Of a stretch of DNA of 64,000 nucleotides, positions 42,152-46,020 are shown one piece after another. The stretch comes from Thermalbibacter longus (GTDB lineage: Bacteria; Chloroflexota; Chloroflexia; Thermomicrobiales; Thermomicrobiaceae). The DNA lies in contig NZ_JAMSLR010000002.1 of assembly GCF_023806485.1 (NCBI RefSeq), positions 186,001-250,000 of the forward strand. The letters are read 5' to 3'. Within the stretch, counting starts at the first letter, position 1. Each line of letters starts with the position of its first letter. Made by a program: the position numbers and the translations under genes. The notes below the pieces were generated by a model that worked only from the letters and a program-made list of their open reading frames with translations, ran no database searches and was not told the DNA's origin.

Positions 42152-44533
42152 CTACCCCTTCAGGTAGACGATCGTGACGCCTTCGCCGCCCTCCCCGAGC
42201 CCAGCCAGCTCGAAGCGGTCGACGAGCGGGTGCTCGCGAAGGGTCTCGTGCACGACCGCGCGCAGGGTTCCGGTGCCCTTGCCGTGCACGATGCGTACCC
42301 AGGGCAGCCCGGCCCGGGCGGCGTCGTCGAGGTAGCGCTCCAGGCGCTGGATCGCGTCGGCGGCGCGCATTCCCCGCAGGTGCAGCTCTGGCTCGACCCG
42401 CGGCGGTGGCGGCGCCGCGATCGTTACCGGGCGGGTGGGCCGCGGCTCGGGAGCCGCGGCCACCTTACGGAGCACGCCCAGCGGCTGGCGTACCCGGAAG
42501 GCGCCGACCTGGATCTCGGCCTCGTCGCCGTCGTGCAGCGCCACGAGCTCTCCCTGAAGCCCGAGTGAGGGAACCTCCACCTGGTCGCCCACGCGAACGG
42601 CGTCTGGTTGGACGGCCGGCCGGCGGCGCCGAGCCGCGGCGCGGACGCTCCGGCGCGCCGATTCCAGCGCCTTTGCTGCCTGCTCGACTTCGACCGGCGT
42701 GGGGCGCTCCTCGCGCGCGGCCTGGCGCCGGAGGTGCCGGATCAGCTCGCGAGCCTCGGCCAGCTCGATCTCGAGCTCGGCCAGTGCCTCCTCGCGCGCT
42801 CGGCGTCGCTCCAGCTCTGCCTCGCGCAGTAGCTCCTCGGCCTGCCGACGCAGCGCTTCGGCCTCGGCTCTCGCCTGCCGCGCCTCCTCGAGGTGACGCT
42901 CCGCCGCCTCGCGACGGCGCCTGATCTCGGCCAGCAGCTCTTCGGCCCGCTCGGCGGCTGGGTCGAGGTAGCTGCGGGCCTCCTCGATCACTGCCTCGTC
43001 GAGGCCCAGTCGCCGCGCGATGACCAGCGCGTTCGATTGCCCCGGTATGCCGGTGACCAGGCGGTAGGTCGGGGTCAGCGTCTTGAGGTCGAACTCCACG
43101 CTCGCGTTCTCCAGCCCAGGCGTGGCGTAGGCGAACGCCTTCAGCTCGGGGTAGTGAGTAGTCACGACACCGAGGACACCGAGTTCGAGGAGGCGGGAGA
43201 GGATCGCCCGGGCCAGCGCCGCGCCCTCCTGGGGGTCGGTTCCGGCTGCCAGCTCGTCGAGCAGGACGAGGCTATCGGAGTCGGCGCTGCGCAGCGTGGC
43301 GACGATCCGGGTCATGTGCGAGGAGAACGTCGAGAGACTCTGCTCGATGCTCTGCTCGTCGCCGATGTCGGCGAAGATGGCCGGGAAGACGCTCAGGCCC
43401 GAGCCCTCGGCGGCCGGGATGAACATCCCGCTCTGGGCCATCAGTGCCAGCAGGCCCACGGTCTTGAGCGCCACCGTCTTGCCGCCGGTGTTCGGCCCGG
43501 TGATGACCAGGATACGGTAGGTCTCCCCGAGCGAGATATCGATCGGTACCACCGTCGCCGGATCCAGCAGCGGATGCCGTGCCTGGCGCAGCAGCACCCG
43601 GTGACGAGGATGGCCGCCCTCGTCGGCCCGGCCGCTGGCCTCCAGCAGTTGAGGCTCGACGGCGCGTTGGTCGAACGCCAGGCGAGCTTTGGCGAGCGCC
43701 AGGTCGATGGCGGCGACCGCGTCCACGGTCCGGTAGAGGTCGTCGGCGGCCAGCGCGATCTGATCGGTCAGGGCGCGGAGGATGCGCTGGATCTCGTGCT
43801 CCTCGGCGAGCTGGAGCTCGCGCCAGCGGTTGTTGAGTTCGACGACCTCCAGCGGCTCGATGAAGAGCGTCTGCCCGCTGGCCGAGACGTCGTGCGTGAC
43901 CCCGGCCACCAGGTTGCGGCGATCGGCACGCACCGGGATCACGTAGCGCCCCTCGCGCATGGTGATGATCGGATCCTGGATCGCCTGGGCGACGTTCGTG
44001 CTCGCCAGCAGCCGGCGAAGCCGCTCGAGCAGCCGCTCGTGGGCCTGCTTCAGCTCGCGCCGGATCTCGACCAGCCGGTCGGAGGCAGTGTCGAGGATCT
44101 CAGCGCGCGGCCCGACCGTGCGCGCGAGGTCGGCCTCCAACCGGCTGAGCTCGGGGATCGCGAGAGTGAACTCGGCGAGCCGCGGGTAGCGCTCGGCCCA
44201 GTTCGGGAGCGTGAAGAATGCTCGGGCCAGCGCGCGGGCTGCTTGCACGGCGTCGAGCGTCTCGCGCAGCTCGGCCGGGCCCAGAAGCTGCCCATGCTCA
44301 GCGCGCTGGAGGATCGGCCGGATATCCCGCATGCCGCCGACCCCGAACCGCGGGTGCTCGGTCAGCAGCGCTACAGCCTCGCGGGTAACGCCGAGCAGGT
44401 AGGCGACCTGGCTAGGATCACCCGTTGGGCCGAGCTCGGAGGCGCGCTCGGCTGCCACCGAGAACTGGCAGCGTTGGGCCAGTAGCTCGCGCACGCGGTC
44501 GAATTCGAGAACTCGCAGGAGGTCGCTCGCCAC
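42152..44533 (-). CDS. mutS2: Endonuclease MutS2
   Basis: MutS-family ATPase with C-terminal Smr domain, 793 residues, linked to suppression of recombination and to ribosome rescue in various bacteria. It has Walker A VITGPNTGGKTVALKTVGLL, Walker B SLVLLDELAAGTDPQEGAALA, a long glutamate/arginine coiled coil (about 505-610), and an Smr domain with LHLRGMRAADAIQRLERYLD and VRIVHGKGTGTLR. The mismatch-recognition domain of MutS is absent, as expected. GTG 44533 with GAGAAGG eight bases upstream is preferred to GTG 44563, which lacks a ribosome site. Confidence 0.95.
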   Translation of the reverse strand: MASDLLRVLEFDRVRELLAQRCQFSVAAERASELGPTGDPSQVAYLLGVTREAVALLTEHPRFGVGGMRDIRPILQRAEHGQLLGPAELRETLDAVQAARALARAFFTLPNWAERYPRLAEFTLAIPELSRLEADLARTVGPRAEILDTASDRLVEIRRELKQAHERLLERLRRLLASTNVAQAIQDPIITMREGRYVIPVRADRRNLVAGVTHDVSASGQTLFIEPLEVVELNNRWRELQLAEEHEIQRILRALTDQIALAADDLYRTVDAVAAIDLALAKARLAFDQRAVEPQLLEASGRADEGGHPRHRVLLRQARHPLLDPATVVPIDISLGETYRILVITGPNTGGKTVALKTVGLLALMAQSGMFIPAAEGSGLSVFPAIFADIGDEQSIEQSLSTFSSHMTRIVATLRSADSDSLVLLDELAAGTDPQEGAALARAILSRLLELGVLGVVTTHYPELKAFAYATPGLENASVEFDLKTLTPTYRLVTGIPGQSNALVIARRLGLDEAVIEEARSYLDPAAERAEELLAEIRRRREAAERHLEEARQARAEAEALRRQAEELLREAELERRRAREEALAELEIELAEARELIRHLRRQAAREERPTPVEVEQAAKALESARRSVRAAARRRRPAVQPDAVRVGDQVEVPSLGLQGELVALHDGDEAEIQVGAFRVRQPLGVLRKVAAAPEPRPTRPVTIAAPPPPRVEPELHLRGMRAADAIQRLERYLDDAARAGLPWVRIVHGKGTGTLRAVVHETLREHPLVDRFELAGLGEGGEGVTIVYLKG

Positions 44534-44691
44534 GGTCAGAACCTTCTCTTTTCGTTCCAACACCTGTCGTCGTCAGCGTGCAAAGAGGCGGGCAGCGTGC
44601 GCCCGCTGCTGGGACAAGCGTATCGTGTCACGCTACGAGCCGCACGCCTCGTGAGGCGGTTTCGGGGCTTTCGCGCGAGTAGGGAGGAGAC

Positions 44692-45252
44692 TTACGATGG
44701 CGGTCGGAGGACGGCGGGTGGCTCACCGGGCAGCCATTCGATGGTCAAGCGGTAAAGGGTCGGCGCGACCCGGAGCGCGGCCGGGGCCAGCAGAGATCTG
44801 TCCATCTCCCGGTTGAGACGCAGCCCGAACTGGTCTTGCGGCAGTTGGCGGATCGTCCCGTTGGCCACTTGGACCACTGCCGCTGTCACCCCGGCCGCGA
44901 AGACGAACGCCAGGAGCGACAACAGCAGCACGCCGAACGCGCCAGTCCGGAGCGCGGTCAACCGTCGCGTCGGAACCGGTGCGACCTGGAACGAGCGCAG
45001 CATGAGCAGCACCGCTCCGGCGGCCAGCAACGCGGCGGTGATCACGAAGGCCATGAGCTGAGACGCCCAATTCGACATCGATGGCGCGATCGAGCGCAAG
45101 GCGCTGGCCAGCGGCTCAGTGAACAGCGCCGCGCCGACCATTGCGGCGAACAAGGCGATCAGGCCGACCAGCGTCCGGCCGATGCCGCCGAGAAACGCCA
45201 GCGTGTAGGCCCCGAGAAAGACGACCATGATCAAAATATCGGCTATCGGCAC
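44692..45252 (-). CDS. cvpA: CvpA family membrane protein
   Basis: 186 residues, four predicted membrane helices. The N-terminal PIADILIMVVFLGAYTLAFLGGIGRTLVGLIAL matches the CvpA/colicin-V-production family, followed by the family-like SNWASQLMAFVITAALL. Its role is unclear; family members affect envelope homeostasis. A C-terminal soluble segment of about 55 residues is present. Start is GTG 45252 with GAGG seven bases upstream. It lies divergent from lexA, so the SOS box between them could influence it too, and is followed by mutS2 after 158 bases. Confidence 0.75.
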   Translation of the reverse strand: MPIADILIMVVFLGAYTLAFLGGIGRTLVGLIALFAAMVGAALFTEPLASALRSIAPSMSNWASQLMAFVITAALLAAGAVLLMLRSFQVAPVPTRRLTALRTGAFGVLLLSLLAFVFAAGVTAAVVQVANGTIRQLPQDQFGLRLNREMDRSLLAPAALRVAPTLYRLTIEWLPGEPPAVLRPPS

Positions 45253-45303: not shown

Positions 45304-45333
45304 TTGACACGAACATCTGTTCGCTCGTATAGT
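45304..45333 (+). promoter_or_regulatory. lexA promoter with embedded LexA (SOS) box
   Basis: TTGACA (45304-45309) and TATAGT (45328-45333) are separated by 18 bases. Inside the spacer, directly after the -35, lies CGAACATCTGTTCG (45310-45323), a perfect dyad of the Gram-positive LexA-box form CGAAC-N4-GTTCG. Bound LexA would exclude RNA polymerase, giving autorepression relieved by DNA damage. It lies 46 bases before the lexA ATG. Confidence 0.88.
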
Positions 45334-45378: not shown

Positions 45379-46020
45379 ATGCCCCGAGCGCTCAGCCAGC
45401 GACAACGAGCGATTCTCGATTACATCGAGCGCTTTCTGGATGAGAACGGCTACCCGCCGACCATCCGCGAGATCCAGCACGATCTGAACATCTCCTCGAC
45501 CAGCGTGGTCGATTATAACCTGAACGTACTCGAGCAGCGCAACCTGATCCGGCGCAACCGGAATATCTCGCGCGGCATCGAGCTGGTCGGCCGTCGCAGC
45601 GCTGAGAAGCGCGTCGTTCGGATCCCGCTAGTCGGGCAGATCGCTGCCGGCCAGCCCCTGCCGGTCCTCGAGGAGGTCGACCCAGCGACGGTGAACGACC
45701 ACATCGAGCTCAGTGTCGACCTCGTGGGAAGGTCGCAGGATGGCCTGTTCGCGCTCCGGGTCAACGGGTTTTCGATGATCGACGCCTTGATCGGCGACGG
45801 GGATATCGTCGTGTTGCGACGCCAGCAGACAGCGGAGAACGGGGAAACCGTCGCGGTCTGGCTGCGGCGAGAACAGGAGACGACGCTCAAGCGGTTCTAC
45901 CATGAGGGGGATCGCATCCGCCTGCAACCTGCCAACGCGACGATGGCCCCGATCTACACGACACCCGATAACGTCGAGATTCAGGGCAAGCTAGTGACGG
46001 TACTGCGCTCTGTCTCCTAG
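45379..46020 (+). CDS. lexA: SOS regulator LexA
   Basis: Repressor of the DNA-damage response, 213 residues. The N-terminal winged helix (1-65) contains LSQRQRAILDYIERFLDENGYPPTIREI. The self-cleavage site is Ala90-Gly91 in GQIAAGQPLP, and the S24-type serine/lysine pair is Ser132 (NGFSMIDALIGDGD) and Lys171 (ETTLKRFY). The residue before Ser132 is Phe rather than the usual Asp (GDSM). ATG 45379 is chosen because GAGGGAG stands just upstream, although the frame is open from 45355. Its own promoter carries a consensus LexA box, so it is autoregulated. Confidence 0.95.
   Translation: MPRALSQRQRAILDYIERFLDENGYPPTIREIQHDLNISSTSVVDYNLNVLEQRNLIRRNRNISRGIELVGRRSAEKRVVRIPLVGQIAAGQPLPVLEEVDPATVNDHIELSVDLVGRSQDGLFALRVNGFSMIDALIGDGDIVVLRRQQTAENGETVAVWLRREQETTLKRFYHEGDRIRLQPANATMAPIYTTPDNVEIQGKLVTVLRSVS

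Follow-up and report, generated by a model that had tools for sequence, protein, structure and literature searches.

The dyad CGAACATCTGTTCG upstream of lexA in Thermalbibacter longus is almost certainly LexA's autorepression operator, and as such a predicted operator of the ordinary Gram-positive type. This reading draws on the sequence, position and conservation of the dyad, on the family identity of the LexA protein together with its cleavage-site, serine and lysine residues, and on boxes of the same motif at SOS genes; binding, repression, cleavage and induction are modelled on the established biology of LexA. The lexA operator is itself of an already-known type, and the content of the regulon is the more interesting part. 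The box gives a dependable motif for the order Thermomicrobiales, and can serve to single out uncharacterised candidates for damage-inducible genes, of which the clearest is a gene for a putative RAD52/Red-beta-like protein. Two such side finds, this 204-aa gene and a 60-aa ORF, outrank the box.

The lexA promoter and its predicted operator

The window, the 64-kb stretch of DNA analysed here, lies on contig C12 of a genome (G000) of 3.63 Mb in 80 contigs. The features of its lexA locus, in window positions, are:

45304..45309, + strand: -35 element TTGACA of the lexA promoter, read from the sequence; at all 30 lexA loci compared the box follows it directly
45310..45323, no strand assigned: predicted LexA box CGAACATCTGTTCG with half-sites CGAAC/GTTCG, from the sequence and shuffles; present in 30 of 30 loci
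45328..45333, + strand: -10 element TATAGT of the lexA promoter, read from the sequence; the lexA loci compared have a TAT(A/G)-type -10 at a similar distance
45379..46020, + strand: lexA, encoding a LexA repressor of 213 aa with winged-helix and S24 peptidase domains (PF01726, PF00717, TIGR00498)

The preliminary description had the box filling the promoter spacer directly after TTGACA in a layout suited to autorepression, and this is the arrangement at 45304-45333, upstream of a genuine LexA. The dyad starts directly after TTGACA, ends 4 bp before TATAGT, and together with CTCG makes up the spacer, 14 of whose 18 bases belong to the box; the lexA ATG lies 55 bp downstream of the box. We took ATG 45379 as the start of lexA, the mechanical ORF starting at GTG 45355. 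The protein matches the equivalog model TIGR00498 over residues 3-212, and hence as a whole, with 185.4 bits against a cut-off of 110.95, and contains the Pfam domains LexA_DNA_bind (PF01726) and Peptidase_S24 (PF00717). The Ala90-Gly91 cleavage site, Ser132 and Lys171 are invariant in 11 of 11 aligned LexA proteins and align with LexA sequences from the PDB; with these self-cleavage residues present, the protein is predicted to be a self-cleaving repressor. A search with LexA gave one match in its own genome, where a second S24 match spans profile positions 34-102 only, and among named LexA proteins that of 'Bacterium HR26' is nearest (97%), with those of Thermomicrobiaceae MAGs, Sphaerobacter and Thermomicrobium coming next.

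In the proposed mechanism, a LexA dimer seated on the box between the -35 and -10 elements would block RNA polymerase. Upon DNA damage, RecA filaments would trigger self-cleavage of LexA at Ala90-Gly91, and the resulting fall in the LexA level would derepress lexA along with recA, dinB, ruvB, the imuA-like gene, radA, uvrA and other boxed genes.

One alternative is that the palindrome arose by chance and is unrelated to LexA. The exact sequence CGAACN4GTTCG occurs once in the window against a shuffle mean of 0.05, and because at least one copy turned up in 5 of 100 shuffled windows, the bare 14-mer is modestly surprising on its own; some exact copies elsewhere in the genome are, moreover, plainly not operators. 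For the full pattern TTGACA-N-GAAC-N4-GTTC-spacer-TATANT the window has a single match, whereas 0 of 100 shuffles had any. Against a chance origin stand the same motif at recA, dinB, ruvB and uvrA and, above all, the conservation at lexA. LexA is present in 39 of the 41 genomes searched, and among the 30 lexA loci compared from these 39, own genome included, all 30 carry TTGACA-[AC]GAAC-N4-GTTC before lexA (order Thermomicrobiales), the dyad being exact CGAACN4GTTCG in 22 and deviating by one mismatch in 8. The promoter geometry is fixed across all 30 loci while the flanks diverge. Since the layout is kept in 30 of 30 loci, we regard a chance origin as excluded, and an unrelated palindrome as vanishingly improbable. 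The same conservation bears out the earlier proposal that this lineage uses the Bacillus-like dyad GAAC-N4-GTTC.

A wider scan of 80 of 428 confirmed loci, named loci that overlap partly with the genomes of the 30-locus set, gave an exact best site in 40; in a further 25 loci the best site had one mismatch, in 10 two and in 5 three, where shuffles led us to expect 0.0, 1.1, 11.7 and 41.6, respectively; the site printed for L156 is a tied wrong alternative. Judged by eye, the box-in-spacer layout is found in most loci of the order and in a few Thermobaculum-like ones, and differs in most Dehalococcoidia-titled loci.

GAAC-N4-GTTC is described in PMC3323433 as the LexA box of B. subtilis and M. 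tuberculosis and, by extension, of Gram-positives; PMC8565304 counts 17 reported LexA motifs and notes that they are stable within groups, and RegPrecise 3.0 (PMC3840689) covers more than 25 groups with LexA regulogs and includes a collection for Chloroflexi. Other winged-helix regulators might in principle use similar dyads, and the box might then belong to another repressor that controls lexA. Its agreement with the motif reported for Bacillus and Mycobacterium in PMC3323433, and the known SOS genes among the boxed genes, make this highly improbable, and we retain LexA as the predicted repressor. The boxes described here share half-sites and 4-bp spacing with the Gram-positive box of Bacillus subtilis and Mycobacterium tuberculosis and also stand at lexA, recA and polymerase genes. 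They differ in their occurrence in the phylum Chloroflexota (Thermomicrobiales) and in their outer bases, the lexA sites preferring C/G, with A..T at the spacer ends, and the sites of the 204-aa gene preferring A/T. Within the same phylum, Fernandez de Henestrosa and colleagues are said to have reported, in J Bacteriol in 2002, that Dehalococcoides ethenogenes uses a box of the Gram-positive sequence, whereas the TTGACA-box layout of Thermomicrobiales is, by eye, mostly absent from Dehalococcoidia-titled loci. The E. coli LexA box, CTGT-N8-ACAG, is alike in the logic of a self-repressed lexA and an SOS response, but differs in half-sites and spacing. Among the papers listed by literature searches for Thermomicrobiales, none names SOS regulation in its title or the opening of its abstract.

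The divergent cvpA-mutS2 arrangement

The box had also been placed between divergent lexA and cvpA genes, with the suggestion that cvpA may respond to damage. The placement holds, and the divergence is real and kept in relatives. On the other side of the box, the window carries:

44692..45252, - strand: cvpA-like gene, divergent from lexA (PF02674, E 1.6e-05, 25.4 bits, below the gathering threshold of 29.3); a conserved neighbour
42152..44563, - strand: mutS2, co-directional with cvpA and downstream of it (TIGR01069, 860.5 bits)

The cvpA start is GTG 45252, 57 bp from the box. By tblastn, 29 of 30 loci have mutS2 in divergent orientation to lexA, and cvpA lies between the two in 21 of 30, namely all 19 family-f1 loci, G030 and G029; cvpA thus heads a conserved cvpA-mutS2 arrangement, in which mutS2 is the more widely conserved divergent partner. 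This invites the extended reading that the same box also represses the (cvpA-)mutS2 unit through a divergent promoter overlapping it, for instance with a TATA-rich -10 read backwards. Besides the conserved gene order, such a shared operator would fit the distance from the box to the called cvpA start, 39-94 bp in the ten f1 loci measured (the eleventh, G018, has an over-extended ORF), and a reverse -10-like hexamer that some of the genomes carry 8-13 bp before the box. However, that reverse word is expected anyway from the TATA of the lexA -10; across the 30 lexA loci the best candidates for a divergent cvpA/mutS2 promoter have 3-7 mismatches of 12 and share no common position; and in two f2 genomes, G028 and (by eye) G021, a TACAAT lies far from the box towards mutS2. 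We therefore consider a shared operator possible, with the odds somewhat against it, and keep repression of lexA itself as the preferred function of the box.

The motif across the genome and its predicted SOS regulon

The preliminary description further held that the box predicts the SOS motif of the whole genome, and suggested a scan for CGAAC-N4-GTTCG near recA, uvr and polymerase genes. The scan found the motif at recA and dinB and, weakly, at uvrA; its absence from other SOS genes, which would have refuted the reading, was thus not observed. The genome-wide expectation stands in that the same dyad recurs at recA, dinB, ruvB, the imuA-like gene and radA, and weakly at uvrA, but CGAAC-N4-GTTCG as the single motif proved too strong a statement: the 204-aa gene prefers AGAAC-N4-GTTCT, the recA and uvrA sites are often degenerate in one half, and just 4 of the 11 exact copies are promoter-like.

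Relative to reversed controls, the own genome holds 11 copies of exact CGAACN4GTTCG against 3, 45 of GAACN4GTTC against 20, and 6 of the stricter GAACANNTGTTC against 0. The six GAACANNTGTTC sites belong to lexA, dinB, ruvB, the imuA-like gene, the 204-aa gene and the 60-aa ORF, where for two of the six genes we placed the start downstream of the called one. Our gene caller is a simple codon-score script that over-extends starts; in the imuA-like and 204-aa genes the longest ORF crosses the box, and for the 204-aa gene the start downstream of the box agrees with the alignment of relatives. Over 13 genomes GAACANNTGTTC gave 75 sites against 14 in the control, without enrichment in two of them (G005, 1 against 5; G008, 3 against 4). 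The 12 relatives contribute 69 of these sites. Nine are the known lexA sites and the other 60 were read individually, with gene names (ruvB, dinB, imuB, mraZ and others) assigned by eye from protein starts: five relatives have a site at ruvB and six at dinB, in one of these 233 bp away, and for many of the remaining sites no SOS gene is evident.

Operator-like placement of GAACN4GTTC is seen in the own genome at lexA, recA, the imuA-like gene, ruvB, dinB, radA, an HD-domain gene, the 204-aa gene and the 60-aa ORF. The box of recA follows TATGAT, 40 bp before the ATG, that of dinB comes just after TAGAAT, and that of the imuA-like gene lies between TTGATT and TATGCT; the product of the latter gene is RecA-like and ImuA-related, scoring 41.3 bits with the ImuA model against a 150-bit cut-off. 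Going by the control, some 20 of the 45 GAACN4GTTC sites are to be expected anyway, and many fall within coding DNA, a CRISPR-like spacer or other palindromes.

We dropped the exact 14-mer as the sole regulon finder: of its 11 copies, those of lexA, ruvB, radA and the HD-domain gene have a plausible promoter setting. A further, doubtful copy stands 41 bp before a sigma-factor gene (Pfam; L007), and three are inside predicted coding regions (L008, L009 and L011). By eye, one lies in a palindromic intergenic repeat (L006) and another (L002), 33 bp upstream of a dehydrogenase-like gene, is part of a larger palindrome. Also by eye, the copy at G000:C1:415716 (L001) sits in one spacer of a CRISPR-like array, probably by chance. 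Sites with one mismatch, 260 against 168 in the control, were too numerous to use, and a box-plus-minus-10 pattern with 2 mismatches gave, on each strand of the own genome, 3 sites against 1 in the control and no useful candidate, its fixed spacing being a misfit for lexA. A GTACGTA near some boxes had the look of a second motif; it overlaps a degenerate LexA box in the promoters of the 60-aa ORF.

At recA and uvrA, as at the 204-aa gene below, we counted the best site anywhere in the upstream 250 bp, a few of which may not be the operator. On this count recA has an exact GAACN4GTTC in 9 of 30 loci and one with at most one mismatch in 30 of 30 (expected 0.13 and 3.06), and uvrA in 2 and 9 of 10, respectively (expected 0.08 and 0.96), the uvrA set being 10 of 11 genes over the cut-off, with the split gene of G003 left out and none over the cut-off in G040. 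The sites of both genes often have one degenerate half. At recA, two genera (the own genus and g6) have CGAACATGGGTTCT at a constant position behind the -10, and elsewhere AGAACANNNNTTCT forms are common; G034 has the exact core, and outside the own genus, g6 and G034 one half alone is good and some best matches fall inside the preceding gene. The exact box of uvrA in G005 begins 88 bp upstream.

Two further observations concern LexA-like boxes. In three genomes, such boxes (L139, L092 and L150) lie about 130-310 bp from genes judged mraZ-like by eye, which makes a link to cell division control possible, and a LexA box of G030:C215, around 453-482, is prolonged to either side into a long palindrome, TACGTACAGAACACCTGTTCTGTACGTA (L140).

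Candidate damage-inducible genes behind LexA-like sites

The two side finds in the own genome are:

G000:C45:58041-58652: 204-aa gene (L263, L082) with a LexA-like site upstream
G000:C67:134793-134972: 60-aa ORF (L373) behind TTGACA-box-TATGAT

Matches of the 204-aa gene, some partial or paralogous, occur in 36 of 41 genomes. Its upstream 250 bp contain an exact GAACN4GTTC in 23 of 30 loci and a site with at most one mismatch in all 30, where 0.09 and 2.61 were expected, and in many loci this site comes right after the -10. The boxes prefer AGAAC-N4-GTTCT, with A/T outer bases (29 of 30 sites, a count that leaves out L277, for which a tied wrong site was printed and the box AGAACATCCGTTCT is visible in the row). 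The protein gave no Pfam or NCBIfam match, its PHROG matches are of unknown function, and a PDB sequence search found no relative of RAD52/Red-beta type. Relatives are encoded in 84 confirmed viral contigs, 80 of them kept, and in 24 phage records from Thermus, Lactobacillus and other hosts; in three Thermus phage records the matching region is annotated 'ssDNA binding protein' beside 'hypothetical protein'.

The structural evidence is that of a viral-contig relative, L293, which is 55% identical to L263 and was modelled in its place. The model has a mean pLDDT of 79.5 and a pTM of 0.52, with residues 110-148 below 50. In Foldseek, RAD52, Sak or Mgm101 entries take ranks 1-14 of 907 PDB matches of its N-domain; no more than five of these reach E <= 0.001, and the TM-scores are low, at 0.20-0.39 by query length. 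The N-domain aligns with RAD52 at Z 9.9 (rmsd 3.0 over 96) and with Sak at Z 8.7, the first unrelated (dsRNA-binding) rows following at Z 7.8; this relative of L263 is thus modelled with the RAD52 core fold. Its last 52 residues align with the Red-beta C-terminal domain bound to an SSB tail at Z 7.5 (rmsd 1.6 over 52), a value in the range under 8 for which the comparison tool warns of a possibly common arrangement. The likeness to annealing proteins of the RAD52/Sak and Red-beta types thus lies in the N- and C-domains, respectively; the differences are an identity to solved proteins of about 15-17% and, here, a gene carried in 36 of 41 genomes behind LexA-like sites.

The 204-aa gene likely encodes a damage-induced single-strand annealing protein. 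The presence of an annealing protein in an SOS response is an arrangement better known from phages, and we lean slightly towards the view that the Thermomicrobiales took a phage-type RAD52/Red-beta-like annealing protein into their core SOS regulon, which would give damage-induced, RecA-independent annealing, and that in part of the family a small hydrophobic protein under several clustered boxes would be induced too. If true, a RAD52/Red-beta-like annealing protein would be part of the standard SOS response in these bacteria. As a separate observation, an SSB gene in G024:C548 carries a LexA box, and a relative of the RAD52-like gene comes after it (L132).

The 60-aa ORF, for which no Pfam match was found, has two hydrophobic stretches (by eye) and is preceded by one box within the promoter spacer and by three more that each have one mismatch. 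It is matched in 4 of 41 genomes, the own genome, G003, G002 and G007 (L373, L374, L375 and L376); a stop shortens the G002 frame by a few codons, and the G007 copy has 40% identity (E 3.8e-4). A similar cluster of boxes precedes the copies in G003, G002 and G007. Other SOS-induced small membrane proteins are known, and by analogy the 60-aa protein could act on division or the membrane.
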